From Stackebrandtia albiflava (GTDB lineage: Bacteria; Actinomycetota; Actinomycetes; Mycobacteriales; Micromonosporaceae), in contig NZ_VLLL01000005.1 in assembly GCF_007994225.1 (NCBI RefSeq), forward strand, positions 1,096,081 through 1,160,080: a DNA stretch of 64,000 nt, given 5' to 3'. The translations under genes were made by a program, and so were the position numbers. The notes under the pieces are model-generated. The model ran no database searches and had not been told where the DNA came from. It was given only the letters and a program-made list of their open reading frames with translations. Shown piece by piece: positions 51,222-61,223 of this stretch; position 1 is the stretch's first letter; every line of letters begins with the position of its first letter.

Positions 51222-53987
51222 TCAACCCGGTGGGTCCGCCGACCGGGCCAGCAGTTTGCGCGCCTCGGCGACGTCCTCTGCGTTGACCAGTTCCGGTTGC
51301 TCCAGCAGCACCTCCAGGTGCGTCCTGGCCTCGGCGGGGTCGCCGTGTTCCAGCAGGAACGCCCCCAATCGCAGGTGCGCGTGGCCCCGGAGCCTGCGGT
51401 TGTGGTCGTTCTCCAGCAGTCGCAGGCCCTGACGCAGGTGCCGGTTGGCCAGCACCGGCCGCCCCAGGGCCTGATGCGCCTCACCCAAGGCCAACTCCAC
51501 ATAGGAACGGCAGACGTCGGCGCTGATCCCCGACAACAGGACGTTGGCCTTGCGCAGCGGCTCCAGGGCCTCCGCCGCACGACCCGTCTTCAGACGGAGG
51601 TAGCCCAGATTCCGGTGGAGGGTCGCCTCCAGCCTCGGCAACCGCCGGTTGTTCGGCAACATCGCGATCGCCCGGTGGAGCGTGTGCGAGGCGTCGGCGT
51701 ACCGGCCGTGCTCCAGCTCCAGTTCCGCCAGGATCGAATGGCTCCACAGCCCGTCCCGTGCCCGGCCGAGCAACTGCGTCAACGAGATGGCCTTACGGAA
51801 GTGGGTGCGTGAGGCCACGAAGTTGCCCGCCAGGTAGTGCGCCAGGCCCAGGCCGTGGTTGACGCGCCACTGCCCCTCGCGGTCACCGATGCGCTGCGCC
51901 ATCGCCAGGACCGCGCCCAGCGACCGCACCCAGTCGGGGCGGCTGCCCCGACTCACCCACCAGTTCGTCATCCCCACGGTCAACTGCCAGCAGTGCGGCA
52001 GCCCCCGACGTTCGGCGTACCTTCCACATTCGACCAGATTCGCCGACTCCTCGTGCAGCCAGCCCATGGCCGCCGGTTTGGTGGCGAACAACCGCGACCG
52101 CTCCACCGGTCGCCGGATCGGCGGGAACTCCGGGCTGAGCGTCTGATACGCGGCGTCCACACGGGACACGTACCAGTCCAGCAGCCGCCGCGCCGCCGCC
52201 TCCCGCGACTCCACCGGATCCTCCACATCGGCGCGTTCGATCGCGAACATGCGCAACAGCACGTGGAACCGGTACACACCGGTGTCGGTGACCTCCAGCA
52301 GATGCGCCGTCGCCAACCGTTCCAACGCCGCGTCGGCCTGCGGCTCGGGCCAATCGGCCAGCCGGGCCGCGGTGTGGACGTTCACGGTCTCCACCGGTGC
52401 CACCGCGAGGATCCGCCACAACGAACGCAACCGCTCCGGCAACGCCCGGTAGGAGGCGTCGAACGCCGACCGGATCCCCGGGTCACCCGGCAGCCGCAAC
52501 CGGTCCAACCGGTCCGGGCCCGCCAACTCCGTGGCCAACACCGTCGTCGTCAACCGCCGGTCTCGGCGCAGCCGTTCGCCCACCAGCCGAAGCGCCACCG
52601 GCAGGCCGCTGCACAACCCCGCCACCCGCCGCAACGTCGCCTCGTCGCCCAGCCTGCCCCCGTCGACGAAGGTCCGCAGCAGCGACACCGACTCCCACGG
52701 TTCGAACGGCCCCAACGGGACCGAGAGCGCGTCGGTGCGGCCGGCGAGCCCCGGCAGCTCGGCGCGCGAGGTGATCAACACCAGGCACCCCGGCGTGCCC
52801 GGCAGCAACGGCAACACCTGCTCGGCGTCGGCCGCGTCGTCCAGCAGGATCAGCAACCGCCTGCCCGCCACCGTGCTGCGGAACCTTCCGGCCAGTTCGT
52901 CGGTGTCCTGCGGCTGCAGCCCCGGGGCGACCCCGAGACTGCGCATCAACTGTGACAACGCGGCGAACGGTTGCAACGCCGGGGAGGGACCGTGGGCCCG
53001 CAGGTTCACGTACAACGCGCCGTCGGGGAACCGGTCGGCCACCGAATGCGCGAACCGCACCGCCAGCGTGGTCTTGCCGCAGCCGGCGATGCCGTGCACC
53101 ACCGCGACGGTCCCGCCCGCGTCCTCGACGTGCTTGGTCAGTTCACGCAGCACCGGCTGCCTGCCGGTGAAGCTCGCCAGATCGCCCGGCAGCTCCGCCG
53201 GAGCGGGCATCGCGGGCAACGCCACCGGCGCGGCGGTACGGACCTCGCCGCCGGTGTCGTCGCCCCGCAGCAGTTCCCGGTGCAACCGGTTCAACCGCTC
53301 CCCCGGGTCCAGCCCCAACTCCTCGTTCAACCGGCCGCGGAACGCCTGGTAGACGTCCAGCGCCTCGATGCGGCGGCCACAGGCCCGCAGCGCCCGGATC
53401 AGCAACTCGGTCGGACGTTCCCGCAACGGGAACCCCGACGTCAGCGACGTCAGCTCGGCGATCGCCTCACGGTGCCGTCCCAGTTCCAGTTGCGCGGCGA
53501 GGCACTCCTCCGTCGCCACGACCCGCTGTTCGTCCAGATAGGCCGCCCGATGCACCAGCTCGGCGTGGCACACGTCGGCCAGGGCGTTCCCCCGCCACAA
53601 CGCCAGCGCACTCCGCCACAGGTCGACGGCCTCACCGGGCCGGTCCGGCATCGACCGCCGGGCCCGCGCCACGAGGTCCTCGAAGACGATGACGTCCACC
53701 GTGTCCTCGGGTGCCGTCAGCAACCGGTATCCCGACGCCTCGGTCAGCAACCCGGTACCACTGCCCTGCAACGCCTTCCGCAGCAGCGACACGCAGTGCT
53801 GCACCTGCCGGACGGCCGTGATGGGCGGCTGCTCCCACAACGCGTCCGCGATCCGGCTCACCGGGACGGTCCTTCCCGCGTCGAGCAGTAAAACCGCCAG
53901 CAACGCGCGCACCCGTTTGCCGGGCAACGACACCGGCGCTCCCGAGGCTTCGGAGACCTCCACATTGCCAAGGACGCGAAAATCCAT
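51222..53987 (-). CDS. SARP (BTAD) regulator with NB-ARC ATPase and TPR, of the peptide cluster
   Basis: 921 residues. Trans_reg_C winged helix (1-92), BTAD (95-240), NB-ARC with Walker A GIAGCGKTT (299-307), Walker B ILLDDAADA near 373 and RNBS-like LITSRAEL, a winged helix, and a TPR-rich C-terminus (about 620-910). It is divergent from six tandem peptide genes and is the obvious candidate activator of that operon. SARPs bind direct repeats near the -35 region; a candidate (GGCAACCGT at 54120 and 54159) lies in the gap. Typical of actinomycete secondary-metabolite clusters. Confidence 0.93.
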   Translation of the reverse strand: MDFRVLGNVEVSEASGAPVSLPGKRVRALLAVLLLDAGRTVPVSRIADALWEQPPITAVRQVQHCVSLLRKALQGSGTGLLTEASGYRLLTAPEDTVDVIVFEDLVARARRSMPDRPGEAVDLWRSALALWRGNALADVCHAELVHRAAYLDEQRVVATEECLAAQLELGRHREAIAELTSLTSGFPLRERPTELLIRALRACGRRIEALDVYQAFRGRLNEELGLDPGERLNRLHRELLRGDDTGGEVRTAAPVALPAMPAPAELPGDLASFTGRQPVLRELTKHVEDAGGTVAVVHGIAGCGKTTLAVRFAHSVADRFPDGALYVNLRAHGPSPALQPFAALSQLMRSLGVAPGLQPQDTDELAGRFRSTVAGRRLLILLDDAADAEQVLPLLPGTPGCLVLITSRAELPGLAGRTDALSVPLGPFEPWESVSLLRTFVDGGRLGDEATLRRVAGLCSGLPVALRLVGERLRRDRRLTTTVLATELAGPDRLDRLRLPGDPGIRSAFDASYRALPERLRSLWRILAVAPVETVNVHTAARLADWPEPQADAALERLATAHLLEVTDTGVYRFHVLLRMFAIERADVEDPVESREAAARRLLDWYVSRVDAAYQTLSPEFPPIRRPVERSRLFATKPAAMGWLHEESANLVECGRYAERRGLPHCWQLTVGMTNWWVSRGSRPDWVRSLGAVLAMAQRIGDREGQWRVNHGLGLAHYLAGNFVASRTHFRKAISLTQLLGRARDGLWSHSILAELELEHGRYADASHTLHRAIAMLPNNRRLPRLEATLHRNLGYLRLKTGRAAEALEPLRKANVLLSGISADVCRSYVELALGEAHQALGRPVLANRHLRQGLRLLENDHNRRLRGHAHLRLGAFLLEHGDPAEARTHLEVLLEQPELVNAEDVAEARKLLARSADPPG

Positions 53988-54313
53988 TGTGCTACCTCAG
54001 TTCGTCACGTGCGGCGTGGGATCACCGCGACGCCGAGGTGGGACACGACATCGCGGCCGGGGACTCCGGATGGTGACGCTCGGGGGCGGCGACGTCACGG
54101 CTTCTCCTTTCTACCGGGCGGCAACCGTTTTGCACGTCGGTCGATCGGACCGGTCTTCGGCAACCGTCCAGCCATTCCGATCACTGAATGCGATCGGCAC
54201 GAGACAGCGGCGAGGACCGATCGAGGACGACGCCGCCGACACTTGTGACACGCCGCGTCACCTCTCTCCACCCCGACGCGGCGACACAGGAACGTTCCAG
54301 CCGAGGAGAAGCC
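53988..54313 (+). promoter_or_regulatory. 326-bp divergent regulatory region of the peptide cluster
   Basis: No coding sequence is convincing here. GGCAACCGT is repeated at 54120-54128 and 54159-54167, and a palindrome GTGAC-N7-GTCAC lies at 54245-54261. The ribosome site GAGGAG at 54303-54308 serves the first peptide gene. The promoter of the whole peptide operon must lie in this region. Confidence 0.5.
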
Positions 54314-54412
54314 GTGAAGAAGATCCAGGTCCGCAAGACCGAGACCGTCCGCCTCACCAGCGCCGCCCAGCCGCTCTACGTCGGCGGCTGCGGCAGCGTG
54401 CCTCTCAAGTAG
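54314..54412 (+). CDS. Peptide precursor 1 (RiPP-like)
   Basis: 32 residues from a GTG start with GAGGAG 5 bp upstream. It opens (V/M)KKIQVRKTETVRLTSAAQ, continues PLY, then VGGC and ends GSVPLK. It is the only copy with V instead of A before GGC. First of six tandem genes with the same leader. One Cys per peptide. Confidence 0.85.
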   Translation: MKKIQVRKTETVRLTSAAQPLYVGGCGSVPLK

Positions 54413-54461
54413 GCCGTAGGCGATCACGCGTCATCCGACACCGGCGAGGAGGTGACCCGTC

Positions 54462-54560
54462 ATGAAGAAGATCCAGGTCCGCAAGACCGAGACCGTGCGC
54501 CTCACCAGCGCCGCCCAACCGCTGTACGCCGGCGGCTGCGGCAGCGTGCCTCTCAAGTAG
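54462..54560 (+). CDS. Peptide precursor 2 (RiPP-like)
   Basis: 32 residues. Leader identical to copy 1, tail AGGCGSVPLK. Start ATG preceded by GAGGAGGTGACCCGTC, a spacer that recurs before copies 3 and 5. Starts 148 bp after copy 1. Confidence 0.87.
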   Translation: MKKIQVRKTETVRLTSAAQPLYAGGCGSVPLK

Positions 54561-54609
54561 GCCGTAGGCGATCACGCGTCATCCGACACCGGCGAGGAGG
54601 TGACCCGTC

Positions 54610-54720
54610 ATGAAGAAGATCCAGGTCCGCAAGACCGAGACCGTGCGCCTCACCAGCGCCGCGCAACCGCTGTACGCCGGCGGCTGCGGCGGCGGCGGCA
54701 GTGTGCCCGTCCTGGCCTGA
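54610..54720 (+). CDS. Peptide precursor 3 (RiPP-like, extended tail)
   Basis: 36 residues. Same leader; the tail is AGGCGGGGSVPVLA, a Gly-rich extension after the Cys. Starts 148 bp after copy 2 behind the same spacer. Confidence 0.87.
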   Translation: MKKIQVRKTETVRLTSAAQPLYAGGCGGGGSVPVLA

Positions 54721-54762
54721 CCGGCCGCCTGACGTCCGACACCCCCGAGGAGGTGACCCGTC

Positions 54763-54861
54763 ATGAAGAAGATCCAGGTCCGCAAGACCGAGAGCGTCCG
54801 CCTCACCAGCGCCGCCCAACCGCTGTACGCCGGCGGCTGCGGCAGCGTGCCTCTCAAGTAG
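54763..54861 (+). CDS. Peptide precursor 4 (RiPP-like)
   Basis: 32 residues. Leader with one substitution (T11 to S: KTESVRLTS); tail AGGCGSVPLK. The spacer before it (54721-54762) differs from the others in its first half but keeps the GAGGAGGTGACCCGTC end. Confidence 0.87.
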   Translation: MKKIQVRKTESVRLTSAAQPLYAGGCGSVPLK

Positions 54862-54910
54862 GCCGTAGGCGATCACGCGTCATCCGACACCGGCGAGGAG
54901 GTGACCCGTC

Positions 54911-55012
54911 ATGAAGAAGATCCAGGTCCGCAAGACCGAGACCGTGCGCCTCACCAGCGCCGCCCAACCGCTGTACGCCGGCGGCTGCGACACGGTGCCC
55001 GTCCTGAAGTAG
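54911..55012 (+). CDS. Peptide precursor 5 (RiPP-like)
   Basis: 33 residues. Leader as in copies 2 and 3; the tail is AGGCDTVPVLK, in which Gly after the Cys is replaced by Asp. Starts 148 bp after copy 4. A strong hairpin follows 12 bp after its stop. Confidence 0.87.
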   Translation: MKKIQVRKTETVRLTSAAQPLYAGGCDTVPVLK

Positions 55013-55024
55013 ACGGCGCCCGGC

Positions 55025-55062
55025 CGGTCGCCGGGTGGTGAGACCACACCACCCGGCGACCG
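55025..55062 (+). terminator. Attenuator-like hairpin after peptide gene 5
   Basis: 14-bp perfect stem CGGTCGCCGGGTGG (55025-55038) with 55049-55062, 10-base loop. It lies inside the operon, between the five-gene array and the sixth peptide gene. Partial readthrough would lower expression of everything downstream. Confidence 0.7.
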
Positions 55063-55215
55063 CCCGGCGGCGACTGTTCACGTCGCCCGCGACGACACGC
55101 ACGGCGGGCCGGGCACGGTGCACACCGCGACGCCCGACACGTCGACACCTCGTCCAGACGAGGGTACCGGAACGCGCGCGACACCGTCCACAACAGAACT
55201 ACGGAGGTGAATCCG

Positions 55216-55335
55216 ATGAAGAAGATCATGGTGCGCCGCACCGAGACCGTGCGCCTCACCAGCGCCGCGCAACCGCTGTACGCCGGCGGCTGCGGCGGTG
55301 GGGGCCCCGTCTCGCCACCCGCGATGCAGCTCTGA
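55216..55335 (+). CDS. Peptide precursor 6 (RiPP-like, divergent)
   Basis: 39 residues. Leader MKKIMVRRTETVRLTSAAQ differs at two positions from copies 2, 3 and 5 (Q5M, K8R). It continues PLYAGGC and has the longest tail, GGGGPVSPPAMQL. It stands apart from the array behind a 203-bp gap with its own ribosome site (GGAGG 11 bp upstream), between two hairpins. Probably the ancestral single copy or a distinct variant. Confidence 0.85.
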   Translation: MKKIMVRRTETVRLTSAAQPLYAGGCGGGGPVSPPAMQL

Positions 55336-55367
55336 CGACCGCCCCGCCCGACGGCGGAACGGTGACA

Positions 55368-55398
55368 CCACCCGGCGGCTCCACGCGCCGCCGGGTGG
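55368..55398 (+). terminator. Attenuator-like hairpin before the membrane peptidase gene
   Basis: 12-bp perfect stem CCACCCGGCGGC (55368-55379) with 55387-55398, 7-base loop, 33 bp after the last peptide gene stop. Its arms share CCACCCGGCG with the hairpin at 55025-55062. Confidence 0.65.
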
Positions 55399-55435
55399 CA
55401 CCGCCCGCCCATCCGCCACACCGTGGGAGACCGCC

Positions 55436-56617
55436 ATGACCACCGCCGACCCGGCCGTCCTCGACCGGCCGGTCACCCTCCACCACCTCACCTTCCTCGA
55501 CGAGGGCGACGAGGTCACCGTCGGCCGCCCCGACAACGACACCTACATCCACCTCCCCGCCGACGGTGCCGCCCTGATCCGTCGCCTCGCCGCCGGCGAC
55601 ACCCCCCACCAGGCGGCCGACTGGTACCACCGCGAATACGGCGACACCGTCGACATGGCCGACTTCCTGGCGACCCTGGCCGAACTCGACTTCATCGCCG
55701 CCGACGCCGCCACCGCCGCCCCGCCACCCGCCGTGCGGTGGCGACGCCTGGGCGCCGTGGTGTTCTCCCGCTGGGCGATGGCCGGTTACGCCGTCCTCGT
55801 CGCCGCCATGTGCGTCGTCTGGGTCGTCCGCCCCGAGTTCGTGCCGCAGTACGCCCACGCCTTCTACACGCCCTCGCTGGTCGTGGTCATGCTGACCCTG
55901 TTCGTGGGACAGTTCCCGTTCCTGCTGCTGCACGAGGCCGCGCACGCCCTCGCCGGACGCCGCATCGGCCTGAACTCCCGGCTGCGGATCAGCCGCCGCC
56001 TCTACTTCATCGTCTTCGAGACCTCCATGGACGGACTGGTGTCCGTCCCACGCCGGTCACGCTACCTGCCGATCCTGGCCGGAGTGCTCGCCGACGCCGT
56101 GGCCACCGCGGTGCTGGTGCTGACCGCCGCGGCCGTGGGCGGCGTCGTCGCCGGCGCCTGCCTGGCGATCGCACTGACCAATCTGCTGCGGATGCTGTGG
56201 CAGTGCTACTTCTTCCTGCGCACCGACCTGTACTACCTCGTCGTCACCGTGCTGGGCTGCACCAACCTGCACACCGCCTCCCGTGATCTCCTCAAGCGGC
56301 GCGTCCTGCGGTTGCTGCGGCGGCCGGTGCCCGACGCCGTCCCCGTCGGTGAGGCCGACCGCCGGGCGGCCCGCTGGTACTCGTGGCTGCTGCCGCTCGG
56401 ATACGTGGCCCTGCTGTTCAGCCTCGGCTACGTCGTGATCCCCAGCCTCGTCCACGTCGTGGTCGAGGTCGTCGACCGGATACGGGAACAGGCGCCCCTG
56501 GCGGTCGTCGTCGACAGCCTCGTCGTCGCGCTACTCGTCTTCGGCCAGTTCGTCATCGCGGGAGTCCTGGCGCTGCGGCAACGCCGCCGGACCCGCACCG
56601 CGGCGGCCCACACCTAG
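55436..56617 (+). CDS. PqqD-like domain fused to an M50-type membrane zinc peptidase
   Basis: 393 residues from the ATG at 55436 with GGGAGA upstream. The N-terminal 90 residues resemble a PqqD-like RiPP recognition element (VTLHHLTFLDEGDEVTVGRPDNDTYIHLPADGAALIRRLAAG...ADFLATLAELDFI pattern of winged beta strands plus helices). Then come six or so membrane helices with the zinc motif H166-E-A-A-H170 and, in the last part, RTDLYYLVVTVLGCTNLH, aligned with the DGYY...NL segment that supplies the third ligand in peptide-metalloprotease members of this family (D264). Similar membrane peptidases (YydH-like) mature RiPPs. Here it should bind the precursor leader and cut it, at the GG-C junction by inference. 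Confidence 0.82.
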   Translation: MTTADPAVLDRPVTLHHLTFLDEGDEVTVGRPDNDTYIHLPADGAALIRRLAAGDTPHQAADWYHREYGDTVDMADFLATLAELDFIAADAATAAPPPAVRWRRLGAVVFSRWAMAGYAVLVAAMCVVWVVRPEFVPQYAHAFYTPSLVVVMLTLFVGQFPFLLLHEAAHALAGRRIGLNSRLRISRRLYFIVFETSMDGLVSVPRRSRYLPILAGVLADAVATAVLVLTAAAVGGVVAGACLAIALTNLLRMLWQCYFFLRTDLYYLVVTVLGCTNLHTASRDLLKRRVLRLLRRPVPDAVPVGEADRRAARWYSWLLPLGYVALLFSLGYVVIPSLVHVVVEVVDRIREQAPLAVVVDSLVVALLVFGQFVIAGVLALRQRRRTRTAAAHT

Positions 56618-56680
56618 CCGCAAGCCCCCGGGGCGCCGCCCACCGCGCTCACACACCGGATCCAGAGAAAGCAGGCGACC

Positions 56681-58768
56681 ATGACCGGAACCACCCACCT
56701 GTGGCTGCGACTCCCCCGCCGGGAGGACCTCCCCGCCGCCCTCGACGGCCTGGACCTCCCGCGACCGCTGACCGCGGCCCCGCTGAGCGCGCACCGCAGG
56801 CTTCGCGGCCCGTACACCTTCGGCGGTGAGCTGGCCCGCGAACTCACCCCGGGACTGCTGGCCACCGCGCCGGACCTGGTCCGGCTGCACGAGGTCACCC
56901 TCCTCACCCTGGCCCCCGAACTGCGCGACCACGTCGAGGCCACGAAGGAGACCCTGACCTCCCTCGCCGTCCCCGCCGAACGCACCCGTTTCTACTCGCG
57001 GCTGCGGACACTGCGGCTCGCACACGGCATGACCGCGCTACTGCGCGACCGCCCCCAGGACGGGCCGGTCAGCCTCGTCGTCCGCGACGCCCACCACGCG
57101 GACCCCACCGACGCCGAGCTCCTCGCGGTCTTGCTACGCCGGCTCGACCCGGAGCGCGTCCGGCTCGTGGTCTGCACCGGCCTCGACGAACTCGGCGAAC
57201 CCGTCACGCCGATGCCCGAGACGCTGCCCGAGGCACTGCACCGCCACGCCCACCGCGTCGACGCCATCGAATCCACACTGGACGAGGACGTCGACCCCGC
57301 CGCCTACGTCCACCGCGACGGGGTCGCCGACGATCCCCGGCTCGTCGAGGCGTACCTGGCCGCCGACCCCGCCGACCGCGCCCGGTGGCACGACGCACGC
57401 GCCGAACACCTCGAGACGGCCGGATTCGCCTGGCGACTCGGCGCCATCCCCTACCACCGCGAACACGGCGGCGACCCCGTCACCCACGCCGTCCCCGCGC
57501 TGCGGCTGGCACTGGACCACTGCATCGACGCCGGCTTCTACGACGCCACCGTCGATCTGGGCGAACGCGGCCGCCGGTACGTCGACGCCGACGGCGACGT
57601 CGAACAGTGGTGGGCGTTCACCACGAAGATGACCACCTCGCTCGCGGCGTTGGCGCGCGCCGAGGACGCCGAGCGCCTGTACGACGAGGCCCGCGCCGCC
57701 AGCACCTCCCCCGCCATACACCAACAGGCCGCCTACGCCACGGCGATGCTCTACACCCGGCACCACGAGACCGACGTCCGTGACGACCGGCTCGCCAAGG
57801 CGTGGATCAACCAGGCCATCGCGTTCGCCGCACTCGACCCCGACCCGCCGTCGCGGGCGTTCCACTCGGCGTTCTACCGCAACGGCCTCGCGCTCATCGA
57901 ACTCCACCTCGGCGACCCCCAGCAGGCGCTCGACCTGGTCGAGGACGGCCTGCGGCGACTCGACACCGGTCTCGACGCCGACCGGCACCGCCTGCACCGT
58001 TCGGTGCTGCGGTACAACCGGGCGCAGGTGCTGGCGGGCCTGGGCAGGGTCGCCGAGGCCCTCACCGACTACGACACCGTCATCGCGCTGGACCCCAACT
58101 ATCCCGAGTACCACTTCGACCGGGCGGCGCTGCTGCGGCGCCTCGGCAGGGACGACGACGCCCTGGCCGACTACGACGAGGCGATCCGGTTGTCCCCGCC
58201 GTTCCCGGAGGCGTACTTCAACCGGGCCGTGACCCGCGCCGGAACCGGGGACACCGCGGGCGCGCTCGCCGACCTGGCCGAGACCATCGCGCTCGACCCC
58301 GCCAACGTCGACGCATACGTCAACCGGGCCGAACTGCTCCTGGAGGCCGGTGACACCGGCGGAGCCGCCGCCGACGTCGCCGAAGGACTGCGGCGCGATC
58401 CCGAACGCCCCGAACTGCACGTGCTGGCCGGGCACCTCGCCGACGACGGCGCCGCCGCGCTGCGCTCTTACGACGAGGCGTTGCGGGTGTCGCCCGGGCA
58501 CGTCGCGGCGCTCACCGGGCGCGCCGAGATCCACTACCGGGACGGCAGACTCGTCGACGCGCTCGCGGATCTGGACACCGCCGTGATGCTCGACCCCGAC
58601 AACCCCGAGGCCCGGTTCAACCGCGCCGTGGTGGCGATGGACCTGGGCCGCACCGGTTTCGCGCTGGAGGATCTGGAACACGCCGACCGGGTCGCCCCGG
58701 GTGACGCCGACGTGTCCGAGCGGCTGCGACGCTGCCGGGAACTCGTCGCACAGGGGGTCACGTCATGA
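56681..58768 (+). CDS. TPR protein with a remnant NTPase domain
   Basis: 695 residues. Residues 100-175 resemble the second half of an AAA_16/STAND NTPase (SLVVRDAHHADPTDAELLAVLLRRLDPERVRLVVCTG, with a Walker-B-like DAHHAD at 136-141), but no Walker A is present, so ATP hydrolysis is unlikely. A helical middle is followed by about seven TPR units (430-690; for example ALTDYDTVIALDPNYPEYHFDRAALL). It is encoded between the peptidase and the flavin reductase and is probably a scaffold holding peptide and enzymes together. Its stop overlaps the next start (ATGA). Confidence 0.8.
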   Translation: MTGTTHLWLRLPRREDLPAALDGLDLPRPLTAAPLSAHRRLRGPYTFGGELARELTPGLLATAPDLVRLHEVTLLTLAPELRDHVEATKETLTSLAVPAERTRFYSRLRTLRLAHGMTALLRDRPQDGPVSLVVRDAHHADPTDAELLAVLLRRLDPERVRLVVCTGLDELGEPVTPMPETLPEALHRHAHRVDAIESTLDEDVDPAAYVHRDGVADDPRLVEAYLAADPADRARWHDARAEHLETAGFAWRLGAIPYHREHGGDPVTHAVPALRLALDHCIDAGFYDATVDLGERGRRYVDADGDVEQWWAFTTKMTTSLAALARAEDAERLYDEARAASTSPAIHQQAAYATAMLYTRHHETDVRDDRLAKAWINQAIAFAALDPDPPSRAFHSAFYRNGLALIELHLGDPQQALDLVEDGLRRLDTGLDADRHRLHRSVLRYNRAQVLAGLGRVAEALTDYDTVIALDPNYPEYHFDRAALLRRLGRDDDALADYDEAIRLSPPFPEAYFNRAVTRAGTGDTAGALADLAETIALDPANVDAYVNRAELLLEAGDTGGAAADVAEGLRRDPERPELHVLAGHLADDGAAALRSYDEALRVSPGHVAALTGRAEIHYRDGRLVDALADLDTAVMLDPDNPEARFNRAVVAMDLGRTGFALEDLEHADRVAPGDADVSERLRRCRELVAQGVTS

Positions 58769-59355
58769 CGCTCCTGGAGCCGGCGGGGGTAACCGCCCCC
58801 GCCGGCGCGGATCCGTCCCGGGCGCTGCGACGGGTGCTCGGCCACTTCGCGACCGGCGTCACCGTCGTCACGACCACCGACGCCTCCGGCGCGCCCGTGG
58901 GCCTGACCGTCAACTCGTTCACCTCGGTGTCACTGCGCCCGCCGATGGTGCTGTGGTGTCTACAACGGACCTCACGCAGCCGCGCCGCATTCCAGCGCAG
59001 CGGACACTACGCGGTCAACGTACTGGCGGAAGACCAACGGGACCTCGCGGGGCGGTTCGCCGGCGAACGGAGGCATGGCGCGGGCGAACGGAGACATGGC
59101 GCCGGCGAACCGGGGCACGGTGCGGACGGCGAACCGGACCGCTTCGCCGGAGTGGGTTGGCAGTTGGGTGTGGCGGGACAACCGATCCTCGACGGCGTCA
59201 GCGCCTGGCTGGTGTGCCGGTTGCAGGGCACCGGGATACCCGCCGGCGACCACATCGTCCTGTTCGGACGGGTGCTGGCGCACCGGGCGGGACAGGCGCC
59301 ACCGCTGGTGTTCGCGCACGGCCGCTACCGTCACCTCGACCCGCGGACCGGGTGA
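58765..59355 (+). CDS. Flavin reductase domain protein (HpaC-like)
   Basis: 196 residues. The FMN-binding split-barrel pattern is clear: ALRRVLGHFATGVTVVTT, GLTVNSFTSVSLRPPMVLWCL, FQRSGHYAVNVLAEDQ, and a C-terminal FAHGRYRHLDP. It should reduce FMN/FAD with NAD(P)H and hand it to a partner, or itself act on the peptide; no flavin-dependent partner is encoded nearby. Residues 100-124 are a heptapeptide repeat (GERRHGA twice, then GEPGHGA) encoded by a 21-bp tandem repeat at 59062-59124, an insertion rarely seen in this family. Translationally coupled to the TPR gene. Confidence 0.88.
   Translation: MTLLEPAGVTAPAGADPSRALRRVLGHFATGVTVVTTTDASGAPVGLTVNSFTSVSLRPPMVLWCLQRTSRSRAAFQRSGHYAVNVLAEDQRDLAGRFAGERRHGAGERRHGAGEPGHGADGEPDRFAGVGWQLGVAGQPILDGVSAWLVCRLQGTGIPAGDHIVLFGRVLAHRAGQAPPLVFAHGRYRHLDPRTG
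59062..59124 (+). repeat. 21-bp in-frame tandem repeat inside the flavin reductase gene
   Basis: GGCGAACGG starts at 59062 and 59083, GGCGAACCG at 59104, a 21-bp period. The units encode GERRHGA, GERRHGA and GEPGHGA. Confidence 0.85.
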
Positions 59356-59874: not shown

Positions 59875-60243
59875 CTAAGGTTCCACGATCTCGGCGTCGA
59901 CGACGTCCGGACCGGGGTCCGGGGCCGGGGCCGGCCGCCGGTCCATGGCGATGTAGGCGCTGCGGATCCGGTTCGGATCGGGCGTGGTCGTCAACTCCAG
60001 GGACTCGCCGTTGACGGCGGTCGCGGTGACCGTGGGCCGCGCGTCGACGGGCCGGGTACGCAGGAACGTCGCCACCGCCATCGCCAGGGTCGCCAGTTGC
60101 GGCGGGCTGGACACGGTGGCGGTCAACGACTCCCCGGTGAACCGGACACCCAGCTCGGCGGCCGACGGGATCCGCGCGATCCACGCGGACACGTCGGCCG
60201 CGACCGCCGCGCCGCCGGAGACCTCGACCGTGACATCGACCAT
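59875..60243 (-). CDS. Small protein resembling EACC1 (effector-associated constant component)
   Basis: 122 residues from MVDVTVEV at 60241-60243. The middle (ESLTATVSSPPQLATLAMAVATFLRTRP) followed by a strand with VTATAVNGESLEL resembles the EACC1 domain found beside bacterial conflict systems with caspase or trypsin effectors. No effector gene is present in the visible neighbourhood. The match is from memory and weak. Function unknown; convergent with the NUDIX gene. Confidence 0.5.
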   Translation of the reverse strand: MVDVTVEVSGGAAVAADVSAWIARIPSAAELGVRFTGESLTATVSSPPQLATLAMAVATFLRTRPVDARPTVTATAVNGESLELTTTPDPNRIRSAYIAMDRRPAPAPDPGPDVVDAEIVEP

Positions 60244-60254
60244 GACCGTCCTCC

Positions 60255-61223
60255 TCACACGTCACCACCATCCTGCCCCACGCCCTGACGCGGCATCACG
60301 GCCGTGACCCCGTCCGCCTTGTTCCGCTGGAACTGCGCCAACGCGAACCCGAAGTCCCGCATCCACGCGGGCGTGTCGTGCCGGTGCCAGGCGACCCCCA
60401 GGGCGAACCCCAGCCGCCGTCCCTCCCGGTCGTGGAGCCGGCGGGCGCGCAGGTCGAACCCCCGCATGTCGACGGTGTCGCCGAACACCGCCACACCCAG
60501 TCCGGCCTCCGCCAACGCCGCCAGGGTCTGTCCCACGTTGGAACGGTAGACGATGCGCGGGAACAACCCACTGGCCTCGCACTCCTGCATGAACACCCGT
60601 CCGGCGAGGAAACCGGTGCCGTTGACCACCAACGGGAACCGCACCAACTCGTCGACGGTGATGGTCTCGGCCCCGGTGTCGAGCGGGTGACCGGAAGGGA
60701 AGTACGCCGTCACCGTCAAGTGGGCCAACGGGATCGCCTCCAGTTCCTCGCCCACCGGCAACGGCACGATCGCCAGGTCGCACTCACCGTCGGCCAGCCG
60801 CTCCCGCAACTTCAGGGCGCCGTCCTCGATGACCTCTATCCCGACCTCGGGATGTGCCGGGATCCACTCGGCCAGGAACGGCGCCAGGTAGGAACCGGCG
60901 GCGGTGGCCGCCGCGCCGAGCCTGATGCGGGCCCGCCGCCCACCGGCGATGTCGCCGCGCATCGTCGCCAGCAGCGAACCGATGCGGTGCGCGTGATCGA
61001 CCAGTGCCGCCCCGGCGGGGGTCAACCGCGCGCCGCGGGGGCCGCGTTCGACCAGTCCGGCGCCCAGTTCACGTTCGAGTCGCGCGATGGTCCGTGAGAT
61101 CGCCGGCTGGGACGTGTACATGCGTTGCGCCGCGGCGCGGAAGCTCCCGGTGGACGCCACCGACAGGAACGTCTGCAGATCACGGAAAGTCAGATCACCT
61201 GATGCGCTAAACGTATCACTCAC
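60255..61223 (-). CDS. LysR family transcriptional regulator
   Basis: 322 residues from the GTG at 61221-61223 (VSDTFSASG); the frame is open further upstream but the protein-like part begins here. N-terminal HTH: LTFRDLQTFLSVASTGSFRAAAQRMYTSQPAISRTIARLERELGAGL. Effector domain of the PBP2 type. Divergent from the hydantoinase-like operon, which it probably activates; the effector is likely a substrate of that pathway. Confidence 0.92.
   Translation of the reverse strand: MSDTFSASGDLTFRDLQTFLSVASTGSFRAAAQRMYTSQPAISRTIARLERELGAGLVERGPRGARLTPAGAALVDHAHRIGSLLATMRGDIAGGRRARIRLGAAATAAGSYLAPFLAEWIPAHPEVGIEVIEDGALKLRERLADGECDLAIVPLPVGEELEAIPLAHLTVTAYFPSGHPLDTGAETITVDELVRFPLVVNGTGFLAGRVFMQECEASGLFPRIVYRSNVGQTLAALAEAGLGVAVFGDTVDMRGFDLRARRLHDREGRRLGFALGVAWHRHDTPAWMRDFGFALAQFQRNKADGVTAVMPRQGVGQDGGDV

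Follow-up and report, generated by a model that had tools for sequence, protein, structure and literature searches.

The 64,000-nucleotide stretch of Stackebrandtia albiflava DNA analysed here (contig NZ_VLLL01000005.1, positions 1,096,081 to 1,160,080; hereafter the window) carries between positions 51,222 and 59,355 a compact group of genes that is probably, though not securely, a RiPP-like, leader-dependent peptide cassette of actinomycetes (RiPP: ribosomally synthesized and post-translationally modified peptide). Its recurrent parts are a short precursor peptide, a membrane protease with a putative RiPP recognition element (RRE) and a TPR protein. These three form a real conserved cassette, found here and there across a wide range of actinomycetes, on which three separate profiles converge at 28 loci in 27 genomes. 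The best reading is that of a new RiPP-like class, nearest to the daptides in the architecture of its protease. The conservation of the cassette and the selection acting on its peptides are results at the level of sequence, as are the zinc motif of the protease and the SARP-type sites upstream, and the RRE fold is one at the level of a predicted model. The genes of the window are as follows.

51222-53987, minus strand: SARP regulator of 921 residues (winged helix, BTAD, NB-ARC and TPR parts), divergent from the precursors
54314-54412, plus strand: precursor 1, 32 residues, GTG start
54462-54560, plus strand: precursor 2, 32 residues
54610-54720, plus strand: precursor 3, 36 residues
54763-54861, plus strand: precursor 4, 32 residues
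54911-55012, plus strand: precursor 5, 33 residues
55216-55335, plus strand: precursor 6, 39 residues
55436-56617, plus strand: putative RRE (residues ~11-91) fused to an M50-type membrane metalloprotease, 393 residues in all, the remainder being site-2-protease-like with an HEAAH motif
56681-58768, plus strand: TPR protein of 695 residues, with an N-terminal domain (HRRLRGPY motif, AAA_16-like second half) and a C-terminal TPR superhelix
58765-59355, plus strand: flavin reductase (PF01613) of 196 residues, accessory

The six precursor genes and those for the protease, the TPR protein and the flavin reductase run in one direction, the SARP gene diverges from them, and purine-rich sequence lies 5' of the precursor open reading frames (ORFs). 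A first-pass annotation made from the letters alone had named the same parts (a SARP, six peptides of 32-39 residues, the protease, the TPR protein and the reductase), and all are present where it placed them. The overlaps it described are found between the TPR and flavin reductase genes (4 nt) but not between the M50 and TPR genes, which lie 63 nt apart.

The principal evidence for the cassette comes from searching 397 genomes of the order with profiles. The protease profile has matches in 51 genomes; 28 loci in 27 of them score at least 389 bits and constitute the main clade, and the next match scores 228 bits. The TPR gene adjoins the protease gene at 28/28 main-clade loci. Conversely, there are 29 loci with a full-length-type TPR gene (two of them in two pieces), of which 28 adjoin the protease, and the single one without it belongs to genome G329 (locus L079). 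The precursor profile, for which no more than 20 candidates were scored per genome, yields 39 matches at E 1.6e-9 or better, every one of them beside the protease within the same 28 loci, and its next-best matches have E 8e-4 or weaker. The co-occurrence that the first-pass annotation had proposed to look for is therefore found, in 27 of the 397 genomes. At L079 (6656-8731, minus strand), a TPR gene is accompanied by a precursor-like ORF with no Tyr in its tail, there is no protease gene, and the locus looks as if it were decaying.

A broader set of 51 loci, the window included, was gathered mostly by protease similarity, so that the 397-genome counts are the fair ones. Independent counts come from these profile searches, from a search of 160 genomes for relatives of the TPR protein and from a search of 200 genomes with its N-terminal domain. 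Clustering of the called genes of the 51 loci (L043 and L056 are near-identical) finds the TPR protein at all 51, the protease at 50, a flavin reductase at 33 and a SARP at 28, and no other gene family occurs in more than five. A scan of named genomes gave 17 loci, from Candidatus Stackebrandtia, Phytomonospora, Kitasatospora, Lentzea, Streptomyces, Yinghuangia and Actinoplanes. Of 41 related genomes searched, 16 have some relative of the protease, distant clades included, and among 198 sampled genomes of the phylum the main clade occurs in the window's own genome only. An EACC1 (effector-associated constant component) gene lies near the cassette (59875-60258, minus strand), and genes of this family do not recur elsewhere in the set.

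The precursors display the organization of leader and core that the first-pass annotation had read from the six peptides of the window. A pattern read from the DNA, which would miss more divergent precursors, recovers 83 precursors, 75 of them distinct, from 51/51 loci, each with a leader of consensus MKKIxVRKxxxVRLT followed by a variable tail. A single precursor is found in 46 of the loci and 6 to 11 in the other five: 6 in the window, 7 at L021, 6 at L022, 7 at L023 and 11 at L040, with 5, 7, 6, 7 and 11 different tails, respectively. The first five precursors of the window are units spaced at 148-153 nt and up to 98% alike, and this array therefore grew by recent duplication. Within the five multi-copy loci, the ratio of nonsynonymous to synonymous polymorphism (pN/pS) is 0.22-0.57 for codons 2-15 of the leader (highest, at 0.57, in the window), 0-0.58 for codons 16-22 and 0.93-1.28 for codons 23-30 of the tail. 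Leaders are under purifying selection, and tails are free to change. A short ribosomal precursor with a conserved leader and a variable core, one of the marks by which a RiPP is recognized, is thus present throughout the set. Chance ORFs are ruled out by the recurrence of the precursors, their start sites and pN/pS; the ORFs on the opposite strand of the precursor array (for instance 54431-54556) are taken to be shadows of the repeats.

Two residues persist in the otherwise free tails. The Cys to which the first-pass annotation had drawn attention is kept after the leader (...VRLT) in 75/75 distinct precursors; Tyr, which it overlooked, is almost as constant (74/75), and 74/75 have both, against a mean of 36.4 and a maximum of 49 of 75 when pooled core residues are shuffled 5000 times. 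The sole distinct precursor without Tyr is that of L079, the locus that lacks the protease. The Streptomyces loci have one precursor each, with a short and little-varying tail, and at a few loci the tail is rich in Cys, for example CYCYCCCCC. A strongly hydrophobic stretch of 15 residues occurs in only 1 of the 75 distinct precursors, and its lack in the other 74 speaks against a lipoprotein or a Sec-type pheromone precursor. The AGGC motif of the precursors does not fit the lipobox consensus.

The protease: in the AlphaFold model (pLDDT confidence score 85), residues ~11-91 form a predicted winged helix whose best fold matches in the PDB are RREs, namely TbiB1 with leader (Z 10.1, root-mean-square deviation 2.7, 81 residues aligned), TfuB1 (Z 9.7), TigE (Z 8.4) and PqqD (Z 7.8). 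Foldseek reports probability 1.00 for this region, with a best E of only 0.08, and a profile search of the PDB with the protease returns TbiB1 and TfuB1 only, at E 0.48 and 0.88. The zinc-binding signature HExxH is invariant in 17/17 aligned proteases and sits within a long predicted helix (residues 160-176). At the level of predicted models, the fold comparison gives clear backing to the RRE and moderate backing to the protease part, and the fusion of an RRE to a site-2-type membrane protease proposed in the first-pass annotation agrees with the TbiB1 match and the HExxH motif. A leader-recognition domain and leader protease adjoining the precursor, a further mark of RiPP loci, is thus indicated by the predicted RRE fold, the HExxH motif and co-location. 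The protease has no phage match, and a phage origin was discarded on this ground.

The TPR protein: this is the most constant partner of the peptide, a fact overlooked in the first-pass annotation. Its model (pLDDT 92.7) predicts a C-terminal superhelix resembling the one in O-GlcNAc transferase (Z 21.5), preceded by an N-terminal domain in which the R-GPY, AD, E and RR positions are invariant. A link to AAA_16/LAL ATPases is suggested by a weak Pfam match to AAA_16 (1.4e-4, below cut-off) in a protein whose alignment lacks the Walker A lysine. A PDB profile search with the N-terminal domain gave no match, and fold searches were filled by TPR matches. In the 200-genome search, this domain scores at least 169 bits only in cassette or two-gene loci (16 matches), with three weak partial matches elsewhere. 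The two-gene form (L091-L108), reached through weak matches of the precursor profile, belongs to another genus of the same family and consists of a precursor directly 5' of a 571-residue relative of the TPR protein. Eighteen full-length relatives of this shorter protein are found among the 160 genomes; a precursor lies just upstream of 17, and the 18th starts at a contig end. The tail of the two-gene precursor is SGARRLWIEWCW in 16/17, with one change in the 17th, and the leader varies. No protease, reductase or SARP match lies within ~1.5 kb of any of the 18, and the longer stretches available at L080, L081, L121 and L122 are likewise without one. The most widely shared combination is that of peptide and TPR protein.

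The regulator: the SARP has Pfam matches to BTAD (137 bits) and NB-ARC (47 bits), and its Trans_reg_C match of 26.0 bits falls just under the cut-off of 26.2; the AfsR model scores 477 bits, below its cut-off of 1430. The combination of BTAD and winged helix that defines a SARP is found. Three heptamers separated by 4-bp spacers are a described type of SARP operator, according to the portion of PMC3367932 consulted. Candidate sites of this type, which the first-pass annotation overlooked, stand in front of the precursors. Triple repeats with an 11-bp period, 70-145 bp before the first precursor, are found at 22/26 loci with a SARP and 3/22 without (48 loci, after L046, L050 and L056 were dropped as near-duplicates). 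The search window and cut-off of this test were chosen after the analysis of the window, and its p of 1.3e-6 is too small, because the cut-off was chosen afterwards and related loci were treated as independent. Other periods from 8 to 15 give no difference at p below 0.08 between loci with and without a SARP. The SARP loci lacking the repeats are L045, L062, L065 and L073, and the loci without a SARP that reach the cut-off are L030, L075 and L076. Direct heptamer repeats with 4-bp spacers, as expected at a SARP target, are thus found across the loci. In the window, a heptamer pattern written after the site had been seen has one match at 3 mismatches and none in 100 shuffles. The site and two hairpins complete the features of the window.

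54200-54228, plus strand: candidate SARP site, heptamers CGAGACA, CGAGGAC and CGAGGAC with 4-bp spacers, ~110 bp before precursor 1
55012-55085, plus strand: strong hairpin after precursor 5, possible attenuator (-53.7 kcal/mol, z -5.9)
55336-55435, plus strand: hairpin in the gap from precursor 6 to the protease gene, also strong and a possible attenuator (-52.8 kcal/mol, z -3.0; 3/200 shuffles fold as well)

Both hairpins would fit attenuation between precursor and protease genes, which we regard as possible. Rfam matches to mir-341 over a GC hairpin are far below cut-off and were taken as chance; Rfam returned no other match.

The flavin reductase: the window protein is an ordinary PF01613 member (141 bits, cut-off 27), and its GDH motif, which we take to be the NADH site, is invariant in 15/15 aligned reductases. 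The gene stands beside the TPR gene on the same strand in 32/51 loci, and no reductase adjoins the other 19 TPR genes, although one of these loci, L068, is cut by a contig end. L060 without the reductase and L059 with it have nearly the same precursors. The reductase is dispensable on these counts, which rule it out as a core enzyme and give no support, as a core feature, to the flavin-dependent step that the first-pass annotation had offered as one of two ways of modifying the tail. A possible fixed link of the reductase to the type of tail was judged by eye only.

Assembled into a pathway, these elements suggest the following order of events. The SARP would turn on transcription via the triple heptamer sites, and the hairpins 3' of the precursor genes may hold the output of precursors above that of enzymes. 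The leader would dock as a strand on the RRE that the M50 protein carries, as the predicted fold implies, and the same protein would cleave it at the membrane, probably somewhere from residue 15 to residue 22, and may also give the product its way out. The product would be the short tail, which in the main clade retains Cys together with an aromatic residue at a constant distance from the leader; this tail may be modified. The TPR protein, apparently a degenerate STAND/LAL-like protein without the Walker A lysine, may, to judge from its constancy, be a dedicated partner of the peptide (a chaperone, presenter or receptor). The reductase could be an optional helper that supplies reduced flavin, keeps the Cys reduced or feeds an oxygenase encoded elsewhere. 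Several precursors per locus with freely changing tails, together with SARP control, speak for a secreted natural product.

Five sets of observations weigh against this reading. First, gene clustering over the 51 loci reveals no conserved transporter and no conserved modifying enzyme besides the optional flavin reductase, for which reason the tail could be unmodified. Second, members without the protease exist, and cleavage by it is therefore not universal. The first-pass annotation had counted the absence of the protease from related loci against its own proposal; the protease is present at all 28 TPR-adjoining loci of the main clade and absent from the 17 two-gene loci, L079 and L136. Third, the Cys-Tyr rule fails outside the main clade. 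The tail lacks both residues at L135, where the protease and TPR genes lie between annotated IS4- and IS5-type transposase genes on a Streptomyces plasmid (NZ_CP109482.1), and at L136 (Nonomuraea), where a precursor and a TPR protein occur with no protease near, and Trp replaces Tyr in the precursors of L091-L108. The Cys-aromatic rule therefore marks the main clade and not the whole family. Fourth, the RRE and site-2-protease assignments are those of a predicted model. Pfam calls neither PqqD nor M50 in the window protease, and both are weak in the main-clade relative at L040. The non-RiPP winged helix 8hkr scores Z 8.6 against the N-terminal domain, so that the fold alone is no proof of leader binding, and the remainder resembles mjS2P (3b4r) with Z 6.8 over 123 residues, below the safe level of the tool. 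Fifth, taken by itself, the repeat of the window is not significant against shuffles of its upstream region (p 0.08).

Other explanations were considered. In a tentative one, which we hold possible but would not bet on, the minimal unit is a precursor and a pseudo-STAND TPR protein, from a family of its own, that handles or senses the leader-bearing peptide, the protease, reductase and SARP being add-ons; the unit would be either a peptide receptor system that borrows the leader logic of RiPPs or a maturation class of a new kind, with chemistry of the Cys-aromatic type. The partnership of peptide and TPR protein is possibly new. Doubtful, and a step less credible, is a peptide signalling circuit, in which cleavage of the precursor would set free a pheromone, the TPR protein would act as receptor in the manner of RRNPP proteins and the SARP, with its BTAD and TPR parts, would be the output. 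The constancy of the TPR protein, retained where only the peptide accompanies it, would suit a receptor, and the nearly invariant two-gene tail beside a varying leader would suit a signal, as would the single, little-varying tails of Streptomyces; the frozen tail of the two-gene form leaves room for a signalling role. However, the 5 to 11 different tails of the five multi-copy loci and their near-neutral change would be odd for one signal, Pfam finds no DNA-binding domain or helix-turn-helix in the TPR protein, and no SARP lies within 1.5 kb of the two-gene form. Nor do the precursors show an evident secretion signal, given their rarely hydrophobic stretches, or the 51 loci a conserved transporter.

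The geometry of the two conserved residues would suit a Cys-Tyr crosslink, a fixed Tyr and a floating Cys being joined by a thioether or similar bond with the aid of the reductase or the TPR protein. Among the distinct precursors that have a Tyr, it stands at residue 22 in 62/74 and at residue 21 in 8/74, and the nearest Cys lies between 3 residues before and 10 after it; one Tyr is present in 70/75 distinct cores and one Cys in 60/75. Yet no enzyme known to form such a bond is encoded, and the cores of the 19 loci with no reductase beside the TPR gene keep Cys and Tyr all the same, except that of L079. We consider a crosslink rather unlikely. Least credible of all is a pearlin-like pathway, in which a small molecule is built on a scaffold peptide or released by the M50 protease: the M50 proteases TglG and TmoG free amino-acid products from scaffold peptides, as stated in the part of PMC10885120 consulted, and distant protease relatives with similar leaders lie in surroundings that resemble nonribosomal peptide synthetase (NRPS) or polyketide synthase (PKS) genes by eye (L033, L036), but the 51 loci share no conserved PEARL-type enzyme or other builder, and the tails are long and varied instead of a single C-terminal residue. 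A defence system was set aside as well, since PADLOC matches are weak and none is to a convincing defence protein.

More distant relatives of the protease have peptides of their own. At L031, L085, L087, L089 and L037, the relatives are of the RRE-M50 kind and their precursors of the RKLEKLETT type (RKLDKIETT at L037), and a ThiF-family protein adjoins them at L031 and L037; these loci appear to be another RiPP-like family. Other M50 relatives, at L033, L035, L036 and L084, are accompanied by leader-like peptides such as MKKLVVRKLExxKTSA...C. Their neighbours, assigned by eye, are NRPS-like at L033, mixed oxidoreductases at L035 and PKS-like at L036, where Pfam also identifies a DUF6039 protein.

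The first-pass annotation had held that the set matches no known class of RiPP, and family libraries and the literature, as far as the sources were available in part (PMC10885120, PMC10036551, PMC3367932, PMC12224297, PMC8068269, PMC7794033, PMC7470986), agree with it. No description of the cassette was found in this literature, which excludes supplements and most subscription papers, so that an earlier notice, for example in the RRE-Finder supplementary figures, is possible. Four known systems merit comparison. FxSxx/HaaA cyclophane systems, considered here through the names of NCBIfam models alone, pair a TPR protein with a short precursor as the cassette does, but the model matches, at 206 bits far short of the cut-off of 1125, fall on the NB-ARC part of the SARP and not on the cassette TPR protein. 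The B1 proteins of lasso peptides (TbiB1, TfuB1) are the closest to protease residues ~11-91 in both fold and sequence profile; unlike them, the cassette RRE is fused to a membrane protease, and neither the asparagine-synthetase-like cyclase nor the transglutaminase-like protease of lasso pathways is found among the ten region genes (Pfam) or the recurring gene clusters. EpeP of the epipeptides and the pearlin proteases TglG and TmoG, described in the accessible part of PMC10885120 as membrane M50 proteases that free RiPP products, resemble the cassette protease in type, but the ten region genes include no radical SAM enzyme or PEARL partner, and neither is conserved across the loci.

The nearest system is that of the daptides, for which the part of PMC10036551 consulted describes an intramembrane site-2 protease with an RRE joined to its N-terminus and several short precursors with a conserved N-terminal motif. 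The cassette protease appears to share this architecture and would work like the RRE-protease step of daptides, and the cassette, too, can have several short precursors with a conserved N-terminal motif. The daptide protease model NF041824 also matches distant relatives of the cassette protease, below its cut-off of 300 (49 bits in L037, 26 in L036), though not the window protease. As for differences, 0/75 distinct cassette precursors end in Thr, and the 51 loci share no conserved family of aminotransferases, dehydrogenases or methyltransferases. The daptide oxidative decarboxylase, aminotransferase and methyltransferase are not among the ten region genes (Pfam) and do not recur in more than five loci. 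The cassette, moreover, includes a TPR protein, and none is named for daptides in that part of the paper. With few genes, candidate regulator sites of its own and up to eleven tails per locus, the cassette would be easy to move to a laboratory Streptomyces, where it would show what an RRE-protease can do when the usual modifying enzymes are lacking. Should the TPR protein prove to be the real partner of the peptide, it would open up a peptide-handling family that RiPP searches starting from known enzymes would miss.

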